DNA of 60,919 bases. It comes from Thiomargarita sp. (GTDB lineage: Bacteria > Pseudomonadota > Gammaproteobacteria > Beggiatoales > Beggiatoaceae). Position 1 is the first letter of the stretch, and the number at the start of each line of letters is the position of its first letter. The stretch covers positions 1 to 60,919 of the forward strand of contig DYPD01000004.1 of the NCBI GenBank assembly GCA_020720115.1, in the 5' to 3' direction. The notes under the pieces were generated by a model that saw only the letters and a program-made list of their open reading frames with translations, did not search any database and had not been told where the DNA came from. The translations under genes and the position numbers were made by a program. Shown here piece by piece: positions 145 through 29,595 of this stretch.

Positions 145-660
145 TTACATATGTGCGGCAACGCACCGCCGAAAGGCAGGCAAATGATGTTGCGAAGAAG
201 CATGATAAAGCTGTGCAAACACCTGCATCACATCAGGATACGCCGCCATATACTCCATCAAATGCGCGTACATTTGCGCATTCTGGATTTCCCCCGCTAC
301 GCCCAATTCACAATTTTCCCGCAGCGTTGCAGCAGGTGCGACCAAAGCATACCAGTTGTTGATCGGCATTGGCACTTGATAACGATAAAACAGCGGCGTA
401 AGTGCGGCGATATGGCGCATTTCTGCTTCGATAATGTGGTTAAATGGCACGATATTACCAAAAATCTCCAAAATCCGTTGATACGAGGCTTGTGCGCGAT
501 ATTCATCATATAAGCTCATTTGCAAAGCCTGATGTAGCAAGGGTATGGGGCTTTGAAAATCCAGATGTTTAGTCAATAAATACATGTTTTTCCTTTGCAA
601 AGCCTGATGTAGCAAGGGTATGGGGCTTTGAAAATCCAGATGTTTAGTCAATAAATACAT
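145..660 (-). CDS. Ferritin-like (DUF2202-type) four-helix protein with duplicated N-terminus
   Basis: Probable small ferritin-like diiron protein. The core after the second repeat has the pattern of the DUF2202 ferritin-like family: DEYRAQASYQ, then GNIVPFNHIIEAEMRHIAAL, PLFYRYQVPMP, and a third Glu-rich helix (ENCELGVAGEIQNAQMYAHL), giving Glu/His residues placed like diiron ligands. The N-terminus is odd: a 25-residue block starting MYLLTKHLDF occurs twice in a row because of a 75-bp in-frame DNA duplication. Each copy carries the same ribosome site (AGGAAAAACATG), so translation could start at 660 (171 aa) or at 585 (146 aa). It lies 58 bp downstream of a small Cys-containing gene that has a Fur-like box, so iron-repressed expression is inferred. 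The exact reaction (iron storage, peroxide removal or other) cannot be told from sequence. Confidence 0.72.
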   Translation of the reverse strand: MYLLTKHLDFQSPIPLLHQALQRKNMYLLTKHLDFQSPIPLLHQALQMSLYDEYRAQASYQRILEIFGNIVPFNHIIEAEMRHIAALTPLFYRYQVPMPINNWYALVAPAATLRENCELGVAGEIQNAQMYAHLMEYMAAYPDVMQVFAQLYHASSQHHLPAFRRCVAAHM

Positions 661-718: not shown

Positions 719-967
719 TTATCTTGCCACCCAAGGCGCGATGTCTAAGCGTTCCTGTGCATTGAGGTGTTGCCATTCTTCCAAGGTATCGCGCAGATTT
801 TCACACGCGGTTTGCAGCGCGACACTTGTTTCCGAATTTTCCGCCAAACGCGCTAATAACATGCCAGTTATCGCGCAAGATTGAGTGCAACCACTTAAAA
901 AAGCACGGTTTAAGTGCAAAAAAATACCCGCAACCAAATCACTGTTTGAAATGTCTTGAGTTTGCAT
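719..967 (-). CDS. Small Cys-containing protein of unknown function, Fur-box associated
   Basis: 82 aa, soluble, mainly helical by inspection. It contains three cysteines, two of them as CTQSC in the first half and one in TACENL. I do not recognise a family. The start is supported by GGAG a few bases upstream. A promoter with an overlapping Fur-like box lies just upstream (1003-1032), and the ferritin-like gene follows 58 bp downstream on the same strand, so the two probably form an iron-regulated pair. The cysteines could bind metal or a cluster, but nothing proves this. Confidence 0.6.
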   Translation of the reverse strand: MQTQDISNSDLVAGIFLHLNRAFLSGCTQSCAITGMLLARLAENSETSVALQTACENLRDTLEEWQHLNAQERLDIAPWVAR

Positions 968-2070: not shown

Positions 2071-4164
2071 TCAACGAGTTCTATCAACTTCGCTGCGTAG
2101 CTTTACCCCCGCCATTGAATTGAGCAACACGCCGATGGTTGCGCCGTTGTGGAGTAGTGCGGATAGGACGGGGTTGAGCCAGCCAAACGCCGCACCCGCA
2201 ATGACGGCGGTGTTGACTGTGGTGGAGACGTTGAAGTGTAGGCGGATGAGGTCTAGCGTTTGGTTGCTGAGGCGTTTGGCGTTGACGAGGGTGTGTAGGT
2301 GGTCGTCGAGGAGTACGATGTCGGCGGCGGCGCGGGCGAGGTCTGCGCCTTTGGGCATGGCGATGCCGACGTGGGCGGCAATCAGGGCGGGCGCGTCGTT
2401 GACTCCGTCGCCGATGAACGCGACTGTCTGTCCTTCGTCGCGTAGTTGTTTGACTACTTTGCCTTTGTCTTCGGGCGGGCAGTCGGCAAACACGCGGTCT
2501 ATGCCAAGTTCGGCGGCGAGTGCGTCGGCTTTGTCTTGTTGGTCGCCAGTGAGCATGATGAGGTTTTTTACTCCAGCGGCGCGTAAATCTGCCAGCACTT
2601 GTTTGGCTTCGGGGCGCACGGAGTCGCGCAGTGCGAGCAGTCCGAGCGGTTTGCCGTCAAGCGCCAGATAAAGCAGGGTTTTGCCCGCACGTTCTAGGGC
2701 GTGGATGCTGCGATTGTGCGCCGCAAAAGAAACTTGTTGATGTTCTTCAAGAAAATGCCGACTGCCGATCACCACTTTTTGTCCATTGACTTGGGTGGTT
2801 AAGCCGTGCGCGACTAGGTAGTTGACATCTTCGTGTTCGATGTGTTGGAAGGCGTGTTTGCGGGCTTGCTTGACCACCGCGTCGGCGACCGGATGCGTGG
2901 CGTGTTCTTCGACAGAAGCGGCTAAGGACAGTAGTTGTGCTTCATTCCAGTGTTCAGCACCGAAGCTTTTGACGTTGGTCACTTCCAGTAAGCCAGTGGT
3001 CAATGTCCCCGTTTTGTCGAACACGAAAGTGTCCGCTTCGCCTAGGTTTTCAATGGCTTGCCCGCCGCGAAATAAAATGCCGTGCGTCGCGCCGCGATAT
3101 AGGGCGGATTTGATGGCGACGGGTGTGCCAAGTTTTAGGGCGCAGGCGTAATCCACTAAAAACACCGAGGCGAGGCGGTCAAGATCGCGGGTTGCCGCAT
3201 ACACCAAGCCGCCTAAACCGAGCGTCAAATACACGCGCTGATTAGCTAAATCTTCGGCTAAACATTGGGTTTTGGACTGTTGTTGTAGCGAATTTTCAAT
3301 AAATCGCGCAATTCTCGCCGTTGTCGTGTCGCTGCCGACGCGGGTGGCGAGTATGCGCAAACGCCCTTCTTCCAGCACCGTGCCAGACAGCACTTTGTCG
3401 CCTTTTTCCTTGCGCACCGCCAAGGTTTCGCCGGTGACCGAGGCTTGATTGACCGCCGCGTTACCGCTGAGGACTTTGCCGTCTATCGGAATCAGGTCGC
3501 CAGTGCCAACTTCAATGCGATCCCCTGCCACCAAGTCGCTACAGGCGATTTCGATTAACGCGCCGTCGCGTTCCACCCACGTCTTGCTCGGCATGGGTTT
3601 GAGCAAATGGCGCAACAAACCGTCGGCGCGTGCCTCGGTTTTGTTTTCCAAATAAGCGCCTAATTCGAGCAGACCGAAAGTGGCGATGGCGGTGAAATAT
3701 TCGCCGCGCAACGCCGCCAAACCCACCGCAAGGCTGTCTAAAACCTCGACTTTTATGCCCTCGCTTGCCAGTGTTTTACTGCCTTCCCAGACGATGGGTG
3801 CAACCAGCGTCCAAGTCAGGATTTTGCGTCCTAAGCAGGGTAAAATTGGCAGTAAAAATAAGCTGATAGCCGCCGTAAATACACGCGCTGGCGTAGCGTT
3901 TTCGCGGTTACTTTCGCCAGGTGCAAGACGTTGCTGACGCACCGCGTGAAACTGCCCATTGAGCCAATTCAACAAGGCTTGACGGTGTGCCGCTACGCCG
4001 TCGTAATGCACGATTAAGCTGCTGGCAATGGGATTAAAACGCACACGGCGAATGCCGCTTAAAGCGAGCAAAGCCGCTTCTAAGTGCAAGACATCAATGC
4101 CTTGGTCGGCTAATACAGGGGATTTGAAACGCAGACGTTGCGGGAGTTCGTGGGCGATGTGCAT
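2071..4164 (-). CDS. fezB: P1B-6-type heavy-metal ATPase, FezB-like (ferrosome ATPase)
   Basis: 697-aa P-type ATPase. The phosphorylation motif DKTGTLTTG is at D383, the actuator TGE at 244-246, and GDGVNDAP near the C-terminus. The N-terminal HMA-like domain lacks CxxC and has LPQRLRF at 7-13 instead. The usual CPC in TM4 is replaced by DYACALKLGTP (338-348, one Cys). Both traits fit the P1B-6 group, to which FezB belongs; FezB builds and iron-loads ferrosomes, membrane-bounded iron organelles described in Desulfovibrio, Shewanella, Rhodopseudomonas and Clostridioides. Here it is the last gene of a minus-strand cluster of six that starts behind a Fur-like box and includes two more HMA-like proteins with the same RLR motif. 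Family call is firm; ferrosome formation is inferred from gene content. A plain metal exporter is the alternative. Confidence 0.8.
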   Translation of the reverse strand: MHIAHELPQRLRFKSPVLADQGIDVLHLEAALLALSGIRRVRFNPIASSLIVHYDGVAAHRQALLNWLNGQFHAVRQQRLAPGESNRENATPARVFTAAISLFLLPILPCLGRKILTWTLVAPIVWEGSKTLASEGIKVEVLDSLAVGLAALRGEYFTAIATFGLLELGAYLENKTEARADGLLRHLLKPMPSKTWVERDGALIEIACSDLVAGDRIEVGTGDLIPIDGKVLSGNAAVNQASVTGETLAVRKEKGDKVLSGTVLEEGRLRILATRVGSDTTTARIARFIENSLQQQSKTQCLAEDLANQRVYLTLGLGGLVYAATRDLDRLASVFLVDYACALKLGTPVAIKSALYRGATHGILFRGGQAIENLGEADTFVFDKTGTLTTGLLEVTNVKSFGAEHWNEAQLLSLAASVEEHATHPVADAVVKQARKHAFQHIEHEDVNYLVAHGLTTQVNGQKVVIGSRHFLEEHQQVSFAAHNRSIHALERAGKTLLYLALDGKPLGLLALRDSVRPEAKQVLADLRAAGVKNLIMLTGDQQDKADALAAELGIDRVFADCPPEDKGKVVKQLRDEGQTVAFIGDGVNDAPALIAAHVGIAMPKGADLARAAADIVLLDDHLHTLVNAKRLSNQTLDLIRLHFNVSTTVNTAVIAGAAFGWLNPVLSALLHNGATIGVLLNSMAGVKLRSEVDRTR

Positions 4165-4214
4165 GGCAATAGCTGTGAAACAATCTTAAAAATGATTAAA
4201 CGGGCAAAAGCTGC

Positions 4215-5396
4215 TTAAAATTCAACGGCAATTTGTGCGGTCAGTGCATCGGCTGATTGCCCTGTGCCGCCGCCTTCTACGCCGTAATCTTCGTCGTGCG
4301 CCCATTCAAAGCTTAGTTGGGTGTTGTCCCACGCACCGATAGACCAGCTTAAAAGCCAGCGGTTTTGCGGCAATCCGTGGGCAAGGGCTTCGTCGCTGCC
4401 TTGGTAGCCGATAGCCAGTGTGCTGTCGTGTTGTGCAATGGCGAAGTCGTATGCCGCTTCCAGTTGCCAGGTGTGTGGTTCTGCACCTTGATCTTTCCAT
4501 GCAACTTCAGTGACTTGGAAGTTGTCTGTTGCGCCTAGGTATTCGCCAATTAAGCTGAAATTGCTGTATTTGAGGAGTCCGCTGGCAAACCAGCCGGCGA
4601 CATGATCGGTGACATCGTTGTTGCCGAGGGTTGCGGCGATGGTGTCTTGTAAGCCGCCTTCGCCAATGTCATTAATGAAACCCAAGTTGGTAGTCAATGA
4701 CAGTTCATTGCGTTCCATTGCGTAGCCTAAATGAACGCCCCAGTTGTCAATTTTATTGACGCCGGCTTTTTTGTTATCGCCGTTGAATAGATAAGCTGCA
4801 CCAGAAAAGCCGGCTTGTTCAAAACCAAGTTGTAAGGCAGTTTCTGAAGTTTCGCCGATTTCTAGTGGTAAAGAATCGGAAATCATGTTGCTTGCAAATG
4901 TACCGAAAGGCACAACGCTGCGTCCTGCGAGAATGTACCAAGGTGCATCGGGAGGCGCAATGCGTAGCGTGGCGACATCTACATCTAAGGGGGTGTCGTC
5001 TTCTTCATACAATAAGACGATTTCACCTTTTATCCAGGGATTGACTTGTGCGGTTAAACCGAGTTCAACCGTTGCCACTGAAATATCGTTGCTAGATTCA
5101 CCGCTGTAGGGTTTGTTGTGTTGTGCAGCAACTTCGACAATGCCGGATATTTCAATTTTGTCAGACCATTTGTCAGTGGTCTGAGTGGCAGTGGTCGCGG
5201 CTGTGGTTGTTTGTTGTAGAGCTTTAATTTCTTGTTCTTTGACTTGGATGGTTTGTGCTTGTTGTTGTACGGTTTGTTCTAGTTGTTGTAGGCGTTGTTC
5301 TAGGTATTGTAAACGCTGTTCTACGTTGTCATCAGCCCAAGCCGTTGTGTGTGTGAATGTTGCTCCAATAAGGATGGTTAGAATTTTTTTCTGCAT
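4215..5396 (-). CDS. LbtU-type siderophore porin (outer membrane)
   Basis: 393 aa. It has a signal peptide (MQKKILTILIGATFTHTTAWA), then a coiled-coil segment of repeated Leu/Gln heptads (residues about 25-65), then a beta-barrel with alternating strands and terminal aromatic AVEF. This layout is that of the LbtU family, a TonB-independent ferric-siderophore outer-membrane protein known from Legionella. Its place between the HMA/glycine-zipper genes and the FezB-like ATPase links outer-membrane iron entry with the rest of the cluster. The start lies only 11 bp from the end of MITE copy 2, and no clear ribosome site remains, so the insertion may have altered its expression. Confidence 0.7.
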   Translation of the reverse strand: MQKKILTILIGATFTHTTAWADDNVEQRLQYLEQRLQQLEQTVQQQAQTIQVKEQEIKALQQTTTAATTATQTTDKWSDKIEISGIVEVAAQHNKPYSGESSNDISVATVELGLTAQVNPWIKGEIVLLYEEDDTPLDVDVATLRIAPPDAPWYILAGRSVVPFGTFASNMISDSLPLEIGETSETALQLGFEQAGFSGAAYLFNGDNKKAGVNKIDNWGVHLGYAMERNELSLTTNLGFINDIGEGGLQDTIAATLGNNDVTDHVAGWFASGLLKYSNFSLIGEYLGATDNFQVTEVAWKDQGAEPHTWQLEAAYDFAIAQHDSTLAIGYQGSDEALAHGLPQNRWLLSWSIGAWDNTQLSFEWAHDEDYGVEGGGTGQSADALTAQIAVEF

Positions 5397-5407
5397 AATG
5401 CGCTCGC

Positions 5408-5573
5408 TAGACTTGTTGCGGTATAAAACCCAGTAAAAATGCGGGGTTTGGAAACATGACTCCCTCCCAATTTTTCAGATTTTAGTCAATTTCAGCTAAC
5501 CCATTGATTTTCCGTAGTTGTTAAATCAAGGTGTTTTTTGTAACTTATTGATTTCATAGCCGCAACAAGTCTA
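5408..5573. mobile_element. MITE-like element, family A, copy 2 (166 bp)
   Basis: Starts TAGACTTGTTGCGG and ends CCGCAACAAGTCTA; homologous over its length to the reverse complement of 1142-1305. It is non-coding. It lies between the low-complexity glycine-zipper gene and the porin gene, inside what would otherwise be one operon. Confidence 0.75.
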
Positions 5574-5639
5574 CTAGTGTTGTGGGTTGAGTGAGGCGTG
5601 AGTTATAACCCAACCGAACAAAATGAGTAGGTATTTGGG

Positions 5640-6311
5640 TTATTTTTGGTGCTCTGCTTTGATTTCTGCATCAATATCTTGAATGCGTTCTTTCATTTCT
5701 TCCACGCCGCCTTGTAGCATGTTCCAGAATTTAATCACGGATTTCAAGGTGTTTTTTTGCAAGGATTCATTGGTTAGGATGAAAGTCAATGCAGCACCCG
5801 TGATCGCGCCTTTGGTGAATCGCTCGTCACGGAAGTTGAAAAAGCTGCTTAAGCCGTTGTCGCTGGTTTGGGCTTGCGCGGGATAGGGTGGTTGTGCATA
5901 GCCATAGGCGGGATGTGGCATGGGTGCGTAGCCCGCTGCTTGTGGCATAGGCATGTAGCCGGGGTGCGGATAGCCACCCATTTGTGGTGCGGCTTGCGGT
6001 GCGTAGTGCGGCGGTGGTGGGTAAGCAGGGGCTTGCGCATAGGGCGGTGGCGGCATCGCGCCTGCGTAGGCGGGCGCGGACGTTTGTTCCCAGTAAGCGG
6101 GGGCTTGCGCTGGCGTAGGAGCGCAGTAGTAGGCAGGATAGCCCGGCATTGCGCCATGTCCGCCGTGTCCTGCCTGTCCACCCGCAGCGGCAGTTTGTCC
6201 GTATTGATGTTGTTGTTGCTGTTGTGGAGCTGCGCCCATGCTGTTGTTTATCACGTTTGCATTTCCTTGGGTTTGCACTGGTGCTGCTGCGCCTTTGTTA
6301 GCTTCATTCAT
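5640..6311 (-). CDS. Low-complexity Pro/Ala/Tyr/Gly/Gln-rich protein with C-terminal glycine-zipper helix
   Basis: 223 aa in two parts. Residues 1-150 are disordered-looking and rich in P, A, Y, G, Q, with a Gln run and many PPPPY/APAY/GYPHPGY-like units. Residues about 158-223 hold a hydrophobic glycine-zipper segment (KGAITGAALTFILTNESL) and a charged amphipathic helix (GGVEEMKERIQDIDAEI). The C-terminal half resembles small membrane proteins encoded beside P1B-6 ATPases. A good ribosome site (AAGGATAAACCCATG) supports the start. The next gene upstream ends 10 bp away and carries the same KAGAITG-type zipper. Inference: a membrane-anchored scaffold of a ferrosome-like body, the N-terminal part possibly mediating assembly. 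No enzymatic motif. Confidence 0.65.
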   Translation of the reverse strand: MNEANKGAAAPVQTQGNANVINNSMGAAPQQQQQHQYGQTAAAGGQAGHGGHGAMPGYPAYYCAPTPAQAPAYWEQTSAPAYAGAMPPPPYAQAPAYPPPPHYAPQAAPQMGGYPHPGYMPMPQAAGYAPMPHPAYGYAQPPYPAQAQTSDNGLSSFFNFRDERFTKGAITGAALTFILTNESLQKNTLKSVIKFWNMLQGGVEEMKERIQDIDAEIKAEHQK

Positions 6312-6321
6312 GGGTTTATCC

Positions 6322-6657
6322 TTATTTTTCAGCGGTTGAGGTGAGGGCGTACATCATGGCTGTGCCGGTAACAAACATGGCGGCGAGGGTGGTGAGTTTT
6401 TTCTCACAGCCTAAGTTTTGCCGTACTAGGCTGACGGCACCGACGGTTAAACCCGTGATCGCGCCGGCTTTGAGGATTTCGCCAATGGGGTTGTGGCGTG
6501 TGCTGGCGGGTTTGTGCAGTTGGGTTGCGGTGGAAGCGGCTGCGCCAACCAGTGCGCCCGTTGCCATGCTTTTGAATAGCTCGTGATTTGTTAAAAGTGC
6601 GCCCTGATGTTGCGCGGGATAAGGCGCGGGGACAGGGTAGTAGTCATGGGTACTCAT
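6322..6657 (-). CDS. Small membrane protein with two glycine-zipper segments
   Basis: 111 aa. It has a short Tyr/Pro/Gln N-terminus, then two glycine-zipper hydrophobic segments (ATGALVGAAAS near 33-43 and KAGAITGLTVGAVSL near 64-78) and a last hydrophobic stretch (LAAMFVTGTAMMYAL). The start has a strong ribosome site (GAGGAGTCAAGATG). The KAGAITG motif is shared with the following gene, suggesting the two proteins pack together in a membrane. Position in the cluster behind the HMA-like genes and before the FezB-like ATPase suggests a ferrosome-like accessory role. No exact family name can be given. Confidence 0.62.
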   Translation of the reverse strand: MSTHDYYPVPAPYPAQHQGALLTNHELFKSMATGALVGAAASTATQLHKPASTRHNPIGEILKAGAITGLTVGAVSLVRQNLGCEKKLTTLAAMFVTGTAMMYALTSTAEK

Positions 6658-6688
6658 CTTGACTCCTCTTGGGTTGTTTTCGTGAGGG

Positions 6689-6994
6689 TTAAATTATCAC
6701 ACCAATTTCTGCCAATAAATCAGGCAGTTCGGTACGCGAAGCGCGAATCAGACGCTCCCACCATTGCGGTTGGATGCGCTGGCTGTCGTATTGAATGACC
6801 AGTGAAGCCGCGCTTAAATTTAAGCGCAAATCGGTCACGCCAGGCAGTTGTGTGAGCCAGTCTTGGGCGCGTGCGTTGCCGATTTTTGGCAATAAACCGA
6901 ATGCGTTTGGATGCAACCGTACCCGTAGCCGCCCGCGCACATGATGCACGATGTCTAGCTGGGCGAGCAGTTGGGTGATTAAGTGCCAATCCAT
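6689..6994 (-). CDS. HMA-like domain protein without CxxC (RGRLRV type)
   Basis: 101 aa from the ATG at 6994, which is preceded by AAGG at the right distance; an ATG at 7012 overlapping the upstream stop is also possible (107 aa). It is a single ferredoxin-like HMA-type fold with VRGRLRVRL in the first strand where heavy-metal domains have MTCxxC, followed by TQLPGVTDLRLN and SAASLVIQYDSQ. The same landmarks occur in the gene at 7012-7380 and in the N-terminal domain of the ATPase at 2071-4164. It cannot bind metal through the usual cysteine pair. A role in membrane or partner binding within the FezB-like cluster is inferred. Confidence 0.65.
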   Translation of the reverse strand: MDWHLITQLLAQLDIVHHVRGRLRVRLHPNAFGLLPKIGNARAQDWLTQLPGVTDLRLNLSAASLVIQYDSQRIQPQWWERLIRASRTELPDLLAEIGVII

Positions 6995-7011
6995 ATTTTG
7001 CCTTAGCTCCA

Positions 7012-7380
7012 TTAAATCAATGCTCTAGCAAATGAAGCCGCAGAAGTTTCTAAGCCTTTTTTCAGCAATGCGCCAAATAATACATTGCCCAAAGTGTTGC
7101 CAAATTTGCTGGCAGCCGAATGCGGCGGTGTAAAGACATGGCTGAATTTACTGTGCAGACAACCCGATTTGTGCATTTGGTACAAAATGTCTTCTGCTGA
7201 CACTTGCGTGTGCTCGTATTGCACCAAAATGCTGCCTGCTTTGTGATTGAACGTATGGGCTTGGATGCCGGGCAGTTCGCTTAAAGCGGCGCAAAGCTGC
7301 TCTGCTTTGCAATGTGCATGACGCAGGTGTGCGCTTTGTACGCGCAAACGTCCGGGTAAATTGTGAATGTAGTGACTCAT
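7012..7380 (-). CDS. HMA-like domain protein without CxxC (LPGRLRV type), first gene of the fez-like cluster
   Basis: 122 aa. The N-terminal HMA-like fold has LPGRLRVQS at 9-17, SELPGIQAHTFN and KAGSILVQYEH, matching the HMA-like neighbours and the ATPase N-terminus. The C-terminal 35 residues contain a short hydrophobic glycine-rich segment (FGNTLGNVLFGALL). Cysteines are present but not as CxxC. It is the promoter-proximal gene: a sigma-70-like promoter with a Fur-like box ends about 45 bp upstream. It overlaps or nearly abuts the next HMA-like gene, implying translational coupling. HMA-domain accessory proteins are known in ferrosome operons; the exact Fez letter is not assigned here. Confidence 0.68.
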   Translation of the reverse strand: MSHYIHNLPGRLRVQSAHLRHAHCKAEQLCAALSELPGIQAHTFNHKAGSILVQYEHTQVSAEDILYQMHKSGCLHSKFSHVFTPPHSAASKFGNTLGNVLFGALLKKGLETSAASFARALI

Positions 7381-7423
7381 GAGGATTTATCCCTTGATAC
7401 CGTTAAATAAAACCAATGGCACA

Positions 7424-7452
7424 AATGATAATCCTTTTTATTTAGTTGTCAA
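7424..7452 (-). promoter_or_regulatory. Promoter with Fur-like box ahead of the fez-like cluster
   Basis: On the minus strand TTGACA (7447-7452), a 16-bp spacer and TATCAT (7425-7430). The Fur-like core is read on the plus strand as AATGATAATCCTTTTT (7424-7439), 13 of 16 to the Fur core, and overlaps the -10. Predicts repression by Fe-Fur and induction in iron starvation. Confidence 0.6.
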
Positions 7453-7497
7453 CAGTAAAATGAGAAGTATTTTTATTTTTATAGCCTGTAATGGGCA

Positions 7498-7521
7498 AAA
7501 AATAGCCCTGTCGCGCAGGGC
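7498..7521 (-). terminator. Rho-independent terminator after the hybrid histidine kinase
   Basis: Minus strand: GCCCTG, loop GCGCGA-type, CAGGGC (7505-7510 with 7516-7521), followed by a T-rich run. It separates the kinase gene from the promoter of the fez-like cluster. Confidence 0.65.
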
Positions 7522-7585
7522 AAAAAGACCAACAAGAGTCGTTAATAAAACCGCTTAATGATACAAACCAACAAGCTTCATTTAT

Positions 7586-9925
7586 TTAGCGTATCTGCGT
7601 TTCTTCGTGCAAATGCAGTAAATAACCAATTTCTTGTAATAGTTTACCGATTTCATACGCACTTTTTTGAAAAATCACCAGCTCCGGATGAGTTTTTAGA
7701 ATTTCTTGCTCAGGTGCGGTTAAATCTTTTGCCGTTAAGACTGCAATGGGAATTTTATATAAGGCTAAATCATTTTGCGTGGCATGTAAAAATTCAAAGC
7801 CATCCATTTCTGGCATCATTAAATCTAATAAAATGATGTTAATGTTGACTTTGCTTAATACTTCTAATGCCTCGCGTCCATTGTGCGCTGTGTAAATTTG
7901 GCAAGCTGCCCGCGATAAAACTTTACACATTAAATCTAGCAAATTTTTATCATCTTCGACAATTAAAATTCGATGCTTTGGTTGAATCCAGCTTATTGCC
8001 TCTTTAGGTAAATTATCTACACGGTTGGGTTCTTCAACAATCGGGAAACCTTGTCCTTGCATTAAAGGAAGATAAACATCAAAGCAAGTACCCTGTCCTA
8101 ATTGACTGGAGAGTTGAATGCGTCCACCTAATAATTCAACAAAGCGTTTGCTGATGCTTAAACCCAAACCGGTGCCGCCATATTCTCGTGTGGTTGAGGT
8201 ATCGGCTTGGGTAAAGCTATCAAAAATTTTTGCTTGATCTTGTAAAGCAATGCCAATTCCGCTGTCTTTGATTTTGAAATGTATCCAGCTTGGGCTGCCT
8301 TGCATGTCTGTGAAGTGGCGGACTTTCAAACTAACTTGTCCTTTTTTAGTAAATTTTGCCGCATTGCCGAGTAGATTTAACAGCACTTGTTTAAGTTTGG
8401 CTTGATCGCATTCCATGATGCTTAACGATTCTGGTAAATCAATCATGAAGGTGTTTTGTTGGGTACGCATTTGCGGTTGCAACATGTGTGTGATGTTTTC
8501 CAAGAAAGAACGCAAGGCAAATTGACTATATTCAACCGTCATTTTGTCCGCTTCAATTTTGGATAAATCTAGGATTTGATTAATTAATTCTAATAGATGT
8601 TTGCCTGAATGATGGATTTTTTCTAAATCATCTGTCAATGTCGTTAAGCCTTCTTCCATTGTTTCTTCTTGTAAAATTTCGCTATAGCCAATAATGGCAT
8701 TCAATGGGGTACGCAATTCATGGCTCATATTAGCAATGAAACGATTTTTAGCAACATTGGCTGCTTCTGCTTGTTCTTTGGCGAGCGTTAAATCTTGGGT
8801 GCGTTGTTCAAGGTTTTTCGTATAGGTGCGAATGGTTCGTGAATGTTCACCTAAGCGCTTTGCCATTTTATCAAATGCGCGTGCCAGTACGCCGAGTTCA
8901 TCCTGACGATGGAGGTTTAAGCGTACATCAAAGTTCTTGCCGGTTAATTGTTGCGTTGCCAGTAGCATTTGATGTAAGGGTTTAAGTACCAAATTCGTGA
9001 TTGAAATATAGAGCAGTACAAACACTAAAATGACAATTAAAACGCCAAATAGTAGAATCAGTTGTGCGGTTTCCCAAGTCATTTGGGCAACCGCTTGTTG
9101 CGGCAAGCGCGCGACAAAATACCAGTCCATCGTCGGTAAATGGGCTACTGCTTGATAGGATTGGGTTTCATCCCAATGCGAGCGATTGATGCGTAAGTGA
9201 GTTTGCTCAGGAGGATTGATGGTGCCAGCAATTAATTGATAGTTTTGATCAAATAAGAAATGTTCTGTATTGGGTAAACGCTGCGTATGCAAATCTTCTA
9301 ATACAACGTCTAAGTGAATTTGTGCCGCGATTTTCAGTGGAAAAGCGAGGCGTGATTCTAGCTGTTGCCACACCCATGCCTGTTGTTCTTGATAATGCCA
9401 TTTGCCAGCGGGTGCTTTGGCTTGTTGCAATATTTCAGGCAGTTGCGCTTGTTTCCAACTCGCTTGCTTGGATGACCAGTGCAAAGCCACCTGACTGGGC
9501 GCGTACCATACATATAAATCGCTATATATATCAGGATGATAGGGCAGAATGGCGGCGTGTAAATGCGCACATAGACGGTGCGTCGCTTGGGGTTCGCTTG
9601 ACCATGTTTGCGCTACTGTGCGGCATGTATCCGTTTGTTCTGCGGCTAAGTTGATGCTGGCAAGCGGTGCGTCTTTGAGGTAACGCGCTAACCAGTGTAA
9701 TTGTAATAGCGGTTGTGCAAGCCGCGTTTCTTCTTGTTTACCGCGTTGCTGTGCGGATAGTTCAACAAATTGGATGGCACGTTTTTGAAGCGTGCCAGCA
9801 ATCTGGTTGTACCCCAGAATAGCCATTGAAATCACTAATAGCCCTAACCAAAAACTAAAGCGTTTGAGCAAGATAGCCGTGATGGATTCTTCCACCAGAT
9901 GATAGGGATTGTGCAGTATATTCAT
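7586..9925 (-). CDS. Membrane hybrid sensor histidine kinase (HAMP-HisKA-HATPase-REC)
   Basis: 779 aa from the ATG at 9925, chosen for the GGAG site ahead of it; an upstream in-frame start at 10003 would run into the Fur-like box. Two membrane helices (near 21-41 and 285-310) enclose a periplasmic sensor region of about 240 residues. A HAMP linker, coiled coil, HisKA ([20 protein letters not shown]), HATPase ([38 protein letters not shown]) and a receiver domain ([29 protein letters not shown]) follow. No separate response regulator lies nearby. It sits between the fez-like and feo clusters, and its upstream region shares a Fur-like box with feoA, so a link to iron sensing is plausible but unproven. 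Confidence 0.85.
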
Positions 9926-10002
9926 AGCTAATACTCCGAATGGGATAGGGCATTGGGCTGATGCCTCTTGGATAGTATGTGTTAGCGAAGGATAATATAT
10001 CA

Positions 10003-10089
10003 AATGAGAATTATTATCAACAATATTATTGCAAATAAATATAAATGAGAAATGTTTTTATTTGCGTTTTTCTGCTTATGTGTTATACT
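10003..10089 (+). promoter_or_regulatory. feo promoter region with Fur-like box
   Basis: AATGAGAATTATTATC (10003-10018) matches 14 of 16 Fur core positions. Downstream TTGCGT (10062-10067), a 16-bp spacer and TATACT (10084-10089) could be the feoA promoter. The box also lies about 78 bp upstream of the divergent kinase start. Confidence 0.55.
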
Positions 10090-10130
10090 TAGCCCCTATG
10101 TGGATTTAATGGCTTTTGAGGAATACGAAT

Positions 10131-10412
10131 ATGTTAATGGATACGCACTCAGCATCTACACGCAGTTTTCCGCTGAGTTTGGCGAGCGACGGCGAGTGGC
10201 TGCGGGTCACCACCGTCGTAGGTGGGAAAAATATGCTTAAACGCTTGTTTGCGATGGGAATTACCGATGGCAGTGAATTAGAGGTGATACACCGCCAAAC
10301 CGACAGCGGCATTGTGATCCGCTACGGCGAAACGCGCTGGGCTATCGGTCATGGTATGGCGCATAAAATTAGGGTGGTGAAAATTAACCCACCTTCAGAT
10401 TCAGTAAGTTAA
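10131..10412 (+). CDS. feoA: FeoA-type SH3-like protein (first copy)
   Basis: About 93 aa. The core WLRVTTVVGGKNMLKRLFAM then GITDGSELEVIHRQTDSGIV, ending in MAHKIRVVKI, is the small SH3-like FeoA fold that docks on FeoB during ferrous iron uptake. The start at 10131 is chosen for GAGG upstream; a TTG at 10116 is the alternative. Thirteen bases separate it from a second FeoA gene and all three feo genes run in one direction, so one operon. The presence of two different FeoA proteins is common in proteobacteria, where both are thought to contact FeoB. Confidence 0.85.
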   Translation: MLMDTHSASTRSFPLSLASDGEWLRVTTVVGGKNMLKRLFAMGITDGSELEVIHRQTDSGIVIRYGETRWAIGHGMAHKIRVVKINPPSDSVS

Positions 10413-10424
10413 AAAGGAAATGCG

Positions 10425-10658
10425 ATGAATTTACATCTGAGCGATCTGGACATCGGTGAACGCGGCAAAGTCGTCGGTTTGGAAGAAGGCGAAAAAAGCT
10501 ATCGGCAGAAACTATTGTCTATGGGTTTAACCCCCGGTACGGAATTTAATGTAACCCGTTATGCCCCGCTGGGTGATCCGGTGGAAATTCAAGTGCGCGG
10601 TTTTGCGCTGAGTCTGCGCAAAGGCGAAGCCCATGCGTTGCGCGTTGAGCGGGTATAA
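10425..10658 (+). CDS. feoA: FeoA-type SH3-like protein (second copy)
   Basis: 77 aa, typical FeoA length. Pattern: LDIGERGKVVGLEEGEKSYR, QKLLSMGLTPGTEFNV, PLGDPVEIQVRGFALSLRKGEA. GGAAATGCGATG gives a clear ribosome site. It sits 39 bp upstream of feoB. It is cytosolic and is expected to support FeoB assembly or activity. It is clearly different in sequence from the first FeoA, so the pair is not a recent duplication. Confidence 0.9.
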   Translation: MNLHLSDLDIGERGKVVGLEEGEKSYRQKLLSMGLTPGTEFNVTRYAPLGDPVEIQVRGFALSLRKGEAHALRVERV

Positions 10659-10697
10659 ATTTTTTGCAGCAAGCTTAAATGATCAGGACATTAAACA

Positions 10698-13055
10698 ATG
10701 AGTGAAGCAAATAGTCATATCGTCGGCGTGGTGGGTAATCCGAACTGTGGTAAAACTACCATTTTCAACGCTTTAACGGGTTCTAAACAACGGGTGGGCA
10801 ATTGGCCTGGGGTGACGGTTGATCGCAAAACCGGTTACTACAAACATCAGGGGATCAATATTGAACTGGTGGATTTGCCCGGTATTTATTCGCTGGACAC
10901 CGCCCCTGGTCATACCTCGATTGACGAAGAAATTGCTCAAAATTACACCTTATCGGGCGAAGCCGATTTGATTGTCAACATTCTTGATGCGTCGAATTTA
11001 GAGCGCAATCTGTATTTGACCACGCAACTACTGGACATGGGCGTACCCATGCTGGTGGTGCTAAACATGATGGACGTGGTGCGCGAGCGCGGGCATCAAC
11101 TCAACCTACCCGCGTTGGAACAACAACTGGGGGTGCCGATAGTGCCGTTGATTGCCTCGCGCAATGAAGGCATCGCCGAACTGCGCGACATGATTAACCA
11201 ATGCGCGGCGCATCCCAAAGTATCGCCGACGCAAGTCACCTACACCGACCGCCTCGAAACCGCCGTCAAGCAACTCAGACAGGCACTAGAGCCGCATTTG
11301 CAAGCCGAACAAGTGATTCATGCGCGTTGGCTCACCTTAAAACTGCTGGAAGGCGATCTCGCCTTTGCCCAAGCCACCGACGCGGACGTGGCAAAGCAAG
11401 CCGTTGCTCTGCGCGAAGCGGTGGAAACCGAATTTGAAGAAGACGTTGACATTCTGGTTGCCGATGCGCGTTACAGTTTTATTGGCACTATCAGCGATAC
11501 CTGTTTGCGCAACAACGGCGAATTTGCCCGCAGTTTATCCGACAAAATTGACCATATCGTACTCAATCGCGTGTTAGGCATCCCGATTTTCCTGTTGGTG
11601 ATGTACCTCATGTTCATGTTTACCATCAACATCGGCGGTGCCTTTATTGACTTTTTCGATGGCTTGGTAGGCACTTTACTGGTGGACGGCAGCGCGCATG
11701 TTCTCAATGGCTGGGGTGCACCCGCTTGGCTTGGCACCTTACTGGCAAACGGCATCGGCGGCGGCATCCAAGTGGTCGCCACCTTCATTCCCGTCATCGC
11801 CTTCCTGTTCCTATTCTTATCGTTTCTCGAAGACTCAGGCTACATGGCACGCGCCGCCTTTGTCATGGATCGCTTCATGCGCCTCATCGGCTTACCGGGC
11901 AAATCCTTCGTACCGATGATCGTCGGCTTTGGCTGCAACGTCCCCGCGATCATGGCAACCCGCACCCTCGAAAACGAGCGCGACCGCCATCTCACCGTAC
12001 TGATGAACCCCTTTATGTCCTGCGGTGCCCGTTTGCCCGTGTATGCCCTGTTTGCTGCCGCCTTTTTCCCCGCCAACGGACAAAACTTAGTGTTCGGACT
12101 GTATTTACTGGGCATTTTAGTCGCGGTATTCACCGGCTTAATCATGAAACATACCTTATTGCGCGGCGAAGCAGGCTATTTCGTCATGGAACTACCCTCT
12201 TACCACCTGCCTACCTTCAAAGGCGTGACGCTACGCACCTGGGATCGCCTCAAAGGATTCATCGTCCGCGCTGGACAAATCATCGTCCCGATGGTCATCG
12301 TCATCAGCTTCCTCAACGCCTGGGGAACCGACGGCACCTTTGGCAACGACAACACCGACAAATCCGTACTCAGCGAAATTGGACGCAGCCTAACCCCCGC
12401 CTTTGCCCCGATGGGCATTCAAGAAGACAACTGGCCCGCGACCGTCGGTGTCTTCACCGGCGTACTCGCCAAAGAAGTGGTGGTCGGCACCTTAGACGCG
12501 ATTTACACCCAACTTGGCGCAGCCGAAGCCGCCGCTGCGGGCGAAGCCGCTGCCGCGTTTGATTTATGGGGCGGCATCAGCGCGGCATTTGCCACCATCC
12601 CCGCCAACCTTGGCGGCATCGCAGACAAACTCCTTGATCCCCTTGGAATAAGCATTGGTGATGTCGGCAACATCGAAACCGCCGCCGCCGAACAGGGAAT
12701 CACCAACGCCACGTTTGGCGCGATGCAAGCGCGTTTTGGCGGCACTGAGGCAGCCTTCGCCTACTTGCTATTCATCCTCATGTACTTCCCCTGCACCGCC
12801 GCCACCGCCGCTATTTTCCGCGAAACGGGCGCACGTTGGGCGATGTTCGTCGCGGCTTGGACCACCGGCATGGGCTATATGAGCGCGGTGATTTTCTACC
12901 AAAGCGCGACCTTTATGCGGCATCCGCTGCAATCCGTCGCCTGGGTTGGGGGGTTATTAATAGTGTTTGCTTGCGTACTGATACTGTTGCGCATCGCGGG
13001 AAACCAGCGGCAAACTGCTTTACTCAGAGAGAAAGCCTTAGTAATGCCCGGTTAG
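10698..13055 (+). CDS. feoB: Ferrous iron transporter FeoB
   Basis: 785 aa inner-membrane Fe(II) transporter. The N-terminal G domain has the P-loop GNPNCGKTT (13-21), the switch region with NWPGVTVDRKTG, DLPGIYSL and NMMD. A helical spacer follows, then two Gate domains with several membrane helices, including GFGCNVPAIMATRTLENERD and MNPFMSCGARLPVY, the motifs that hold the transport cysteines. Full length for the family. No FeoC follows; the next gene is convergent. Expected to supply Fe(II) under low-oxygen conditions and to be repressed by Fur. Confidence 0.97.
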   Translation: MSEANSHIVGVVGNPNCGKTTIFNALTGSKQRVGNWPGVTVDRKTGYYKHQGINIELVDLPGIYSLDTAPGHTSIDEEIAQNYTLSGEADLIVNILDASNLERNLYLTTQLLDMGVPMLVVLNMMDVVRERGHQLNLPALEQQLGVPIVPLIASRNEGIAELRDMINQCAAHPKVSPTQVTYTDRLETAVKQLRQALEPHLQAEQVIHARWLTLKLLEGDLAFAQATDADVAKQAVALREAVETEFEEDVDILVADARYSFIGTISDTCLRNNGEFARSLSDKIDHIVLNRVLGIPIFLLVMYLMFMFTINIGGAFIDFFDGLVGTLLVDGSAHVLNGWGAPAWLGTLLANGIGGGIQVVATFIPVIAFLFLFLSFLEDSGYMARAAFVMDRFMRLIGLPGKSFVPMIVGFGCNVPAIMATRTLENERDRHLTVLMNPFMSCGARLPVYALFAAAFFPANGQNLVFGLYLLGILVAVFTGLIMKHTLLRGEAGYFVMELPSYHLPTFKGVTLRTWDRLKGFIVRAGQIIVPMVIVISFLNAWGTDGTFGNDNTDKSVLSEIGRSLTPAFAPMGIQEDNWPATVGVFTGVLAKEVVVGTLDAIYTQLGAAEAAAAGEAAAAFDLWGGISAAFATIPANLGGIADKLLDPLGISIGDVGNIETAAAEQGITNATFGAMQARFGGTEAAFAYLLFILMYFPCTAATAAIFRETGARWAMFVAAWTTGMGYMSAVIFYQSATFMRHPLQSVAWVGGLLIVFACVLILLRIAGNQRQTALLREKALVMPG

Positions 13056-28338: not shown

Positions 28339-29595
28339 TTAAGCAGCGGCTTTTTCTTCAGCTTTACGCGCAAACCATTTCTCAGCTTCTTCATCCCATG
28401 TATCCATGCGCACATAAGAGCTTTGACGTGGTTCAGACACCATATTCGGGTCAACTTCTAAGCCGATGCCTTCAAGGAAATTCACTAAGCCAATACGCTC
28501 AATCATTTCCCCTGTGCGCTCATGTTCTAGCGCATTTTCTGCGAAGAAATCAATAGTTTCTTCAGCAATTTCAACTAAACGCTCGTAGTCTTCCTCGGTT
28601 TCCAATTTCATGAAAGGAATCACTACTGTACCCATTAAGTCACCGATTTTCAGGGTGCGTTTACCGCCCATTAATACGGTGATACCTTTATCATCGCCAA
28701 CAGACAAGGCTTTGGTCATCACGTTAATGCAGTGCATACAACGCACACAGTTACGATTATCAACCGCCAAGGTGTCGTCATCATTCAATGACAATGCTTT
28801 GGTTGGACAACGAGTGATTACATTATCAATAACGTATTTGCGACCTTTTTTAGCAACGAAGGCTTGCACTTCATCTTGTTTAACCTTCATATCATCGCGC
28901 CAAGTACCGATAATTGCCATATCTGCACGCTCAATAGAATTCATGCAGTCATTTGGACAACCAGAAACTTTGAATTTGAATTTGTAAGGCAGCGCAGGAC
29001 GGTGCATATCATCCAGGAAGTTATTCACCAACATACGGTGCAGCTTTTGCTCATTTGCACAAGATTGTTCGCAACGTGCAGCACCAACGCAAGACATACC
29101 AGTGCGCACAGCAGGACCAGCCCCACCCAAGTCAAAACCCATTGCATTAAATTCATCAAATGCAGTTTGCACTTTGTCTGTAGCAACGCCCTGAAACATG
29201 ATGTCGCCACTTTGACCATGAAAAGCCACCAAACCAGAACCGTGCTTTTCCCAGACGTCGCACATATCACGCAACAGTTTGGAACTGTAGTGCATACCAG
29301 CAGGCGGCTGAATACGCAGGGTGTGAAATTCTTTAGATTCAGGGAATTTAGCTGCTACTTCAGAGAAACGCGGAATAACTCCACCGCCGTAACCTAAAAC
29401 ACCGACAGTACCACCTTTCCAGTAGCCTTTGCGGGTTTCGTAGGAATGCTCTAATTGACCCAATAAGTCAATCATCATATTTTGATAAGGCTTTCCTTCG
29501 TCATTTGCCAGACGTTTGAGACCGGTAATAAAGCTAGGCCAAGGGCCGCTTTCCAGTTGATCCAACATCGGGGTGCTGTGCATCTCTTTTGCCAT
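28339..29595 (-). CDS. dsrA: DsrA, dissimilatory sulfite reductase alpha subunit (reverse type)
   Basis: 418 aa, full length. Siroheme-coupled cluster cysteines C169 and C175 (CVGAARC) with C213 and C217 (SGCPNDC), followed by a ferredoxin domain (RCPTKAL, NCVRCMHCINVMTKAL). It is the first gene of the operon dsrABEFHCMKLJOP. AAAAGGAGAGTAACAATG gives a strong start. A phylogeny of DsrAB would confirm the oxidative type; the gene order and dsrEFH/dsrL already point there. Confidence 0.97.
   Translation of the reverse strand: MAKEMHSTPMLDQLESGPWPSFITGLKRLANDEGKPYQNMMIDLLGQLEHSYETRKGYWKGGTVGVLGYGGGVIPRFSEVAAKFPESKEFHTLRIQPPAGMHYSSKLLRDMCDVWEKHGSGLVAFHGQSGDIMFQGVATDKVQTAFDEFNAMGFDLGGAGPAVRTGMSCVGAARCEQSCANEQKLHRMLVNNFLDDMHRPALPYKFKFKVSGCPNDCMNSIERADMAIIGTWRDDMKVKQDEVQAFVAKKGRKYVIDNVITRCPTKALSLNDDDTLAVDNRNCVRCMHCINVMTKALSVGDDKGITVLMGGKRTLKIGDLMGTVVIPFMKLETEEDYERLVEIAEETIDFFAENALEHERTGEMIERIGLVNFLEGIGLEVDPNMVSEPRQSSYVRMDTWDEEAEKWFARKAEEKAAA

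Follow-up and report, generated by a model that had tools for sequence, protein, structure and literature searches.

The DNA analyzed here (the window) is a stretch of 60,919 nucleotides from Thiomargarita sp. (assembly GCA_020720115.1, contig DYPD01000004.1). Between 7380 and 2071 it carries six open reading frames (ORFs) on the minus strand that an earlier sequence-only reading had taken for a fez (ferrosome) operon, and all six were found at that place and on that strand. Their order from the promoter is HMA1, HMA2, GZ1, GZ2, an LbtU-family porin and a P1B-type ATPase, FezB; intergenic spacing is at most 50 bp throughout, apart from 243 bp upstream of the porin gene. The operon is made up as follows:

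7421..7452, minus strand: putative promoter TTGACA-16-TATCAT (7452-7425) with an overlapping Fur-like box (7421-7439, 13/19); from a site scan
7012..7380, minus strand: HMA1, CxxC-less HMA_2-domain protein (LPGRLRV motif); from Pfam HMA_2 and hhalign
6689..7012, minus strand: HMA2, second CxxC-less HMA_2-type protein (VRGRLRVR motif); from Pfam HMA_2 below cut-off and hhalign
6322..6657, minus strand: GZ1, small glycine-rich protein; from a sub-threshold Gly-zipper match and hhalign
5640..6311, minus strand: GZ2, A/P/Q/G/Y-rich N-terminal half followed by a YtxH/DUF5132-like C-terminal domain; from alignment and hhalign
4215..5396, minus strand: outer-membrane porin of the LbtU family, with a coiled coil at the N-terminus ahead of the beta barrel; from NCBIfam NF033652 and a low-confidence model
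2071..4164, minus strand: FezB, P1B-type ATPase whose N-terminus holds an HMA_2-like domain (LPQRLRF); from profiles, motif and trees

The FezB ATPase and its clade

The ATPase carries the motif DYACALKLGTP, in which ACALK replaces CPC, and its N-terminus scores 28.3 bits against Pfam HMA_2, slightly under the cut-off of 30. A genome scan with the ATPase covered the best 80 of at least 561 relatives, ranked by a Vibrio sequence, and loci from five Shewanella, Vibrio, Photobacterium, Ferrimonas, Chromatiaceae, Thauera, Azotobacter and others are among the matches listed, with none from R. palustris, S. putrefaciens, D. magneticus or C. difficile in those 80. The loci compared comprise 98 fez loci, or 95 after removal of L018, L020 and L021, which are second copies of L063, L088 and L093; L033 and L089 are probably one record and are both counted among the 95, and partner counts over the 95 loci are lower bounds, many flanks being short or at contig ends. 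The signature D[YHF][AS]C[APGS][LVI][KR] followed by TP or SP is present in 94 of the 98 fez-locus ATPases, CPC stands at that place in none of them, and RxR lies close to the N-terminus in 77.

Phylogeny had been set beforehand as one test of the fez assignment, and the ATPase falls inside the fez-operon clade, not outside it. In a tree of 37 rows, picked by hand from 74 with the longest outgroups and also L122 and L123 left out, all 29 ATPases with adjacent fez genes are split from the eight other P1B ATPases by a branch with support 100/100. Within it, the window ATPase and L063 form a pair (100/98) that belongs to a Beggiatoa/Competibacter group (100/100). The larger quick tree of 74 rows is concordant, separating 56 rows from 18 with a Shimodaira-Hasegawa-like approximate likelihood ratio test value of 97, and in it the long outgroup rows met each other. 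The fez side of the branch is a clade only with the root outside it, and that root position was assumed because ordinary P1B pumps have CPC. The clade so defined holds the window ATPase together with the fez-type ATPases of Shewanella, Vibrio, Azospirillum and others. Locus L063 comes from a sulfur-cave metagenome-assembled genome deposited as Dichelobacter nodosus; its grouping with Beggiatoa-type relatives in the FezB tree makes the deposited name look wrong.

The signature marks are not exclusive to fez loci, as some are carried by the outgroup ATPases L122 (Deinococcus; ISCVLK and RxR), L123 and L169 (both RxR); no CPC was found in L122 or L123, and both lie outside the fez clade in the 74-row tree. 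The P1B-6 type named in the sequence-only reading is a candidate label for the window ATPase, in which ACALK replaces CPC. On the Gloeothece plasmid of L123, positions 3893-9375 hold the cyanobacterial P1B ATPase, which sits on a long branch outside the clade, with nearby genes annotated as DUF5132 and HMA2-domain proteins, and this locus is possibly a distant cousin of fez. The mycobacterial ATPases with a DUF1490 neighbor (L017 and L169), presumably of CtpC type, are P1B ATPases like that of the window, and L169 shares the N-terminal RxR; unlike it, they have the CPC motif and fall outside the fez clade.

An ordinary operon for heavy-metal efflux (Cu, Zn/Cd or Co), in which HMA chaperones would accompany a P1B ATPase, would agree with the ATPase scoring 381.5 bits against the NCBIfam cadmium-family model TIGR01512, above its cut-off of 313.5, and with Cu and Zn/Cd pumps being its best matches among solved structures. 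However, CPC is missing from the ATPase and CxxC from all six operon proteins by motif check, including HMA1 and HMA2, for which the sequence-only reading had already said so; in addition, the fez clade excludes the tested CPC ATPases, and the locus has Feo neighbors and Fur-like boxes. Heavy-metal efflux was rejected on motif and tree and is regarded as very improbable.

Six of 39 relatives match the ATPase at 58-74% identity (in G017 split in two ORFs), with the next best at 37% or less, and it occurs in seven of 396 sampled other genomes of the phylum at E 1e-110. Among 146 genomes of Shewanella's family a FezB-type ATPase is present in 20, of which 12 belong to genus g80 (Shewanella). Six Shewanella rows (L041, L043, L045, L145, L154 and L163) fall in the fez clade of the 74-row tree, five sharing one branch and L163 standing on another; L163 belongs to Shewanella genome G645 (locus L174), which has a six-gene Azospirillum-type fez operon. 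At the G017 locus (L023, 6796-8381) FezB is broken into two ORFs and only HMA1 is recognized nearby, perhaps a decaying fez locus.

Accessory proteins and transcriptional control

Of the two HMA-like proteins, HMA1 passes the Pfam HMA_2 cut-off of 30 with 42.3 bits and HMA2 lies slightly under it with 26.5; in the whole genome at E 0.01 there are three HMA_2 matches, all within this operon. Their arginine-rich motif is presumably the 'R3 motif' of HMA-type fez partners, which is taken to be definitive for fez.

Homology of the accessory proteins was checked with hhalign, comparing profiles of at most 10 window-group proteins with profiles from 30 Shewanella/Vibrio-type loci. HMA1 matches V_HMAm, the product of the divergent HMA gene of those operons, at 99.0%, and HMA2 matches the other HMA, V_HMAp, at 99.2%; GZ1 matches V_GZ at 96.0%, while GZ2 matches V_YtxH at 99.0% and V_long, a longer low-complexity protein, at 97.8%. 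When the HMA pairs are crossed, scores stay high (97.8 and 93.9%) because the domain is common to both, so the pairing of HMA1 and HMA2 rests on the better score. Mismatch controls are low, at 17.8% for GZ1 with V_YtxH and 0.4% for GZ2 with V_GZ. All four small proteins match Shewanella/Vibrio-type fez proteins, and by these profiles four of the five small genes of such operons have counterparts in the window, the fifth (V_long) being represented at most by GZ2. With the ATPase inside the fez clade (100/100) and its accessory proteins homologous (hhalign 96-99%), the assignment to fez operons held.

GZ1 and GZ2 had been described as glycine-zipper membrane proteins. What stood of this is their homology to the GZ and YtxH proteins of fez operons, which is the positive evidence for a membrane location; what did not is a signal in their own sequences, since the Pfam matches are sub-threshold (Gly-zipper 13.2 bits, cut-off 28.9; DUF5132 15.1 bits, cut-off 25) and neither protein has a 19-residue stretch with mean hydropathy 1.6, a strict test that finds only two segments in the ATPase. 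From own sequence the case for membrane proteins is weak. The long P/A/Y/G/Q-rich tail reported for one of them was misplaced, as in GZ2 it is the first 150 residues that are A/P/Q/G/Y-rich, and they are followed by the conserved C-terminal YtxH/DUF5132-like domain (FRDERFTKGAITGAALTF...EEMKER).

Compared with Shewanella/Vibrio-type fez operons, the window shares the ATPase clade, two HMA_2-type proteins, the GZ and YtxH-like proteins and a Fur-like box. It differs in having no separate V_long, whose low-complexity character is carried by GZ2, in having HMA1 lead a run of genes that all share a strand, where it is divergent in Shewanella and Vibrio, and in the LbtU gene between GZ2 and FezB. 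In the operons of Beggiatoa-group and Competibacteraceae relatives (L018/L063, L019, L192, L064 and L065) the set and order HMA1-HMA2-GZ1-GZ2-FezB are the same and the ATPases are 66-74% identical, but no porin lies inside. HMA1 directly follows feoB in L064 and L065; in L018 GZ2 is succeeded by a gene for a ferritin-like protein (FLP), and other genes stand between these and FezB. The R. palustris genes RPA2333-2338 are given as six fez genes (PMC12016538).

One promoter with a Fur-like box had been proposed for all six genes. A site TTGACA-16-TATCAT at 7452-7425 does match 11/12 and is the best of three promoter-like sites, where shuffles average 5.9 sites, and a Fur-like box of 13/19 at 7421-7439 overlaps its -10 element. 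There is no promoter-like site in the 243-bp gap before the porin, where the best Fur match is 10/19, and the porin gene itself contains a weak site on the minus strand; a single promoter is plausible. The box is weak when taken alone because the window holds 16 Fur-like sites of at least 13/19 where 5.35 are expected. Fur-like boxes of 14-16/19 also precede the fez genes of L018, L019, L020 (two), L021, L022, L014 and L041, one of 14/19 lies before HMA1 in L192, and the feo promoter in the window has one of 14/19. Fur is a candidate regulator of the fez operon.

These results also bear on whether a fez-clade pump might export or detoxify Fe(II) over the inner membrane with no vesicles involved. 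Vesicles do not follow from pump homology by itself, the strict hydropathy test gives neither GZ1 nor GZ2 a strong membrane segment, and V_long is missing from the gene set, all of which would suit such a pump. Against this, the accessory set is common to Shewanella/Vibrio-type fez operons, and the Fur-like boxes would imply low-iron expression, which fits storage better than efflux; the vesicle-free pump is regarded as improbable.

The porin and the neighboring iron genes

The porin is assigned to the NCBIfam LbtU subfamily NF033652 (319.8 bits, cut-off 90; E 2.3e-95), in agreement with the porin named in the sequence-only reading. Its structural model is of low confidence, with a predicted local distance difference test score (pLDDT) of 63, and shows an N-terminal coiled coil and a barrel; the best fold matches are general porins, and they are only supportive because of that low confidence. 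It belongs to the same subfamily as LbtU of Legionella pneumophila, well above the cut-off, but sits in a fez operon.

The porin had been called an unusual member of the operon, and it is one: LbtU lies between GZ2 and FezB in the window genome only, with none at that place in the 94 other fez loci, and it is found in four of the 95 loci overall, the window counted. The other three are Chromatiaceae, namely Thiohalocapsa marina (L075), Lamprobacter (L079) and Halochromatium (L086), in which LbtU lies near fez; the L079 and L086 porins are 92% identical and so not independent, and in L075 the distance from the end of LbtU is about 90 bp to the HMA gene and 2.5 kb to fezB, with a second ATPase also present. 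A further partial parallel is genome G443, in which one contig carries on one strand FeoA-FeoA-FeoB-FeoC-LbtU-FLP-HMA2, with an 82-aa unlabelled ORF before HMA2, the run reaching to within 340 bp of the contig end, and another contig begins GZ1-GZ2-FezB-HMA1. The two contigs may be adjacent, with the order of the relatives split by the contig break. In G023 (L020/L088) an OprB-family porin (PF04966, 8e-37) lies at 8145-9236 between fezB and HMA1.

It is a substantial possibility, though the lesser one, that the fez operon is real and LbtU an unrelated gene that landed in it and kept its own function and control. LbtU is widespread in the family, present in 29 of 42 genomes (one copy in 27, two in 2), and occurs in 5/9 genomes with FezB vs 24/33 without it, so that no family-wide association of LbtU with FezB was found; fez is present without an LbtU match in G011, G433, G019 and G023. 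Six family genomes examined for LbtU surroundings share no common neighborhood, with the exception of G003, where two LbtU copies lie beside an ORF called feoB-like from the start of its sequence. The 243-bp gap before the gene and its place, unmatched in the other loci, point the same way. On the other side stand the Chromatiaceae loci, two of them near-copies, the single run with feoABC, FLP and HMA2 in G443, the G003 pair, the G023 porin, and the gap itself, which has neither a promoter-like site nor a Fur match better than that given above.

A second question is what LbtU carries. Legionella LbtU is the outer-membrane receptor for ferri-rhizoferrin (PMC11705809), and the title of a paper cited there calls it TonB-independent. 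The family is named after that protein, and the window LbtU may likewise be a receptor for a rhizoferrin-like siderophore rather than an Fe(II) channel. However, no IucA/IucC siderophore synthetase was matched in the Thiomargarita genome at E 0.001, though the siderophore may come from other species, and the iron genes nearby are the ferrous (Feo) genes; the siderophore role is considered rather unlikely. Legionella LbtA is presumably of the IucA/IucC family. An outer-membrane partner for Feo and Fez is reasonable because of the precedents of OmpC/OmpF with FeoB as a ferrous iron route in E. coli (PMC7315122) and FupA as an outer-membrane route for Fe(II) in Francisella (PMC5378763).

The Feo and ferritin-like genes that had been said to lie nearby are indeed FeoA, a second FeoA, FeoB and an FLP, and the flanks of the operon read as follows:

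145..660, minus strand: ferritin-like protein (FLP), true start maybe 585; from a profile and a predicted four-helix bundle
719..967, minus strand: 82-aa ORF beside the FLP gene, with a relative near a Rhodocyclaceae fez operon (L104); from similarity
7586..10003, minus strand: hybrid sensor kinase with HAMP, HisKA, HATPase and receiver domains, which may start near 9925; from Pfam
10000..10018, strand not assigned: Fur-like box (14/19) upstream of feoA; from a site scan
10116..10412, plus strand: FeoA-domain protein; Pfam 2e-14
10425..10658, plus strand: second FeoA-domain protein; Pfam 1.5e-22
10698..13055, plus strand: FeoB ferrous iron transporter; Pfam FeoB_N 4e-63, FeoB_C, FeoB_Cyto

The feoA-feoA-feoB genes thus occupy 10116-13055 on the plus strand, and FeoB is present in 19 of the 95 fez loci, the window counted. 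In several lineages FeoB, mostly with FeoA, lies beside fez genes on the same strand (L022, L064, L065, L072, L090, L096, L105 and L106). The sensor region of the kinase recurs at the fez/feo loci of three relatives (L018/L063, L019 and L193) and at no other searched locus; the order in L193 is HMA1-FLP-kinase. That the kinase senses iron or redox state is a guess.

The FLP model is a four-helix bundle (pLDDT 97.1), for which Foldseek gives MJ0754, FtnA and bacterioferritins as best matches (probability 1.00, E 4.6e-4 to 9.6e-4 for the top three, template modelling score 0.74-0.79 by query). The protein is distantly DUF2202/rubrerythrin-like; it fails Pfam DUF2202 with 12.4 bits (cut-off 22), which its relatives in L020 (22.4 bits) and L190 (26.7 bits) pass. 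In the alignment the candidate di-iron ligands H59, E100 and H134 are invariant and E29 nearly so; the helix 2 E is lost in two Azotobacter copies, and the helix 4 ExxH is reduced to H. A glycine-rich hydrophobic C-terminal tail, a candidate membrane anchor, was seen by eye in 10 of 14 aligned FLPs (L015, L071, L094, L096, L099, L100, L104, L105, L106 and L110) and is absent from the shorter window FLP.

An FLP profile matches 18 of the 98 fez loci, or 16 of 95 after removal of the three second copies, the window counted, and FLP sits among fez genes in Thauera, Azotobacter, Dechloromonas, Oligella, Arcobacter and others. The betaproteobacterial and Azotobacter fez operons with FLP (L094, L096, L099, L100, L104-L106 and L110, and L090 likewise by order) share with the window the FezB clade and FLP; they differ in that FLP separates HMA from the remaining small genes and in the tail, present in the eight aligned. 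In the family, FLP matches at E <1e-60 occur in five of 42 genomes, all five among the nine with FezB, an overlap with a chance of about 1.5e-4 by simple counting, in which kinship and the setting of the limit after seeing the data are ignored. Strict fez-specificity of the FLP family was rejected, as six genomes of the phylum carry FLP with no fez gene recognized in the 5-9 kb read. PF00210 ferritins are also present elsewhere in the genome. The 5' end of the window FLP gene contains a 67-bp exact tandem repeat at 519-660 (offset 75, in frame) that duplicates the first codons and is either real or an assembly artefact; because of it, the true start may be 585.

A proposed path for iron

As far as can be told from sequence, the earlier observations are confirmed and their interpretation is supported: the locus is, with high probability, a fez operon in a sulfur-oxidising Thiotrichaceae/Beggiatoa-group member, with FezB pumping iron into ferrosomes and LbtU and Feo feeding it, and the organism would accordingly be expected to make ferrosomes. 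A sulfur-oxidising host, as first proposed, fits the same-family relatives named Thiotrichaceae and Albibeggiatoa and the dsrA gene within the window at 28357-29565 (587.5 bits, cut-off 392.85).

Several points weigh against this interpretation. The trees contain no experimentally proven FezB (D. magneticus, R. palustris, S. putrefaciens or C. difficile), so that the anchor is the genus Shewanella, and a genome of the same genus (G001) has no ATPase match at E 1e-110. With V_long lacking a separate counterpart, the window does not hold the full six-gene set of Shewanella and Vibrio, its sixth gene being the porin. In L064, where HMA1 follows feoB, the best Fur match is only 9/19, the window box is the weakest tested apart from that one, and the G443 contigs have no Fur-like box above 13/19. 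To the family counts already given for LbtU is added its location on a different contig from FezB in G005, G006 and G017. Finally, three family genomes without FezB have weak FLP matches near 1e-9, and in the sample of 396 other genomes of the phylum the six with the FLP family do not overlap with the seven that have FezB. As for the anchor and the gene set, Shewanella contains a proven ferrosome former, and three-gene fez operons exist, so a six-gene set does not define membership. Grant et al. 2022 are said to have shown ferrosomes in S. putrefaciens and R. palustris.

Under low iron, Fur would leave the promoter and the fez and feo genes would be derepressed. Iron, as Fe(II) or a small chelate, would pass the outer membrane by way of the co-encoded LbtU and then the inner membrane by way of the neighboring FeoB. 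FezB, with its arginine-rich HMA-like N-terminus and two free HMA-like partners, would pump this iron out of the cytoplasm and into ferrosome vesicles, and GZ1 and GZ2 may shape the vesicle membrane. The stored iron would be kept for use or detoxification once conditions change, and FLP may oxidise or buffer it. The heme cytochrome FezC has been proposed to modulate the iron redox state in ferrosomes (PMC11334425). No FezC/DUF4405-like protein is among the Pfam matches of the operon, no genome-wide search having been made, and FLP could fill this redox role.

More tentatively, LbtU, Feo, Fez, FLP and the sensor kinase might form a single module in sulfur bacteria for Fe(II) acquisition and ferrosome storage, with LbtU as a dedicated outer-membrane channel and FLP, which in betaproteobacteria, Azotobacter and Arcobacter bears the anchor-like tail, as a built-in ferroxidase or mineral nucleator; this wider proposal is rather doubtful, but if true, ferrosomes would combine a lipid compartment with ferritin-type chemistry and not be an alternative to ferritin. 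To our knowledge, ferrosomes have been shown in few organisms. Among the literature matches listed, with subscription literature mostly outside, ferrosome was not found joined with Beggiatoa or Thiothrix, nor with porin or FeoB, and DUF2202 was not found together with ferrosome or ferritin-like. New here are the lineage, a small-gene set that is reduced, a porin lying within the operon, and the repeated proximity of Feo, FLP and, less often, LbtU. The fez gene set is extended to Beggiatoa-group sulfur oxidisers, and the locus and its relatives give testable ferrosome partners in an outer-membrane porin, Feo, an FLP with a membrane-anchor-like tail elsewhere, and a sensor kinase. Between fezB and the FLP gene there is also a plus-strand ORF at 1479-2051, convergent with fezB, with a borderline DUF3782 match.

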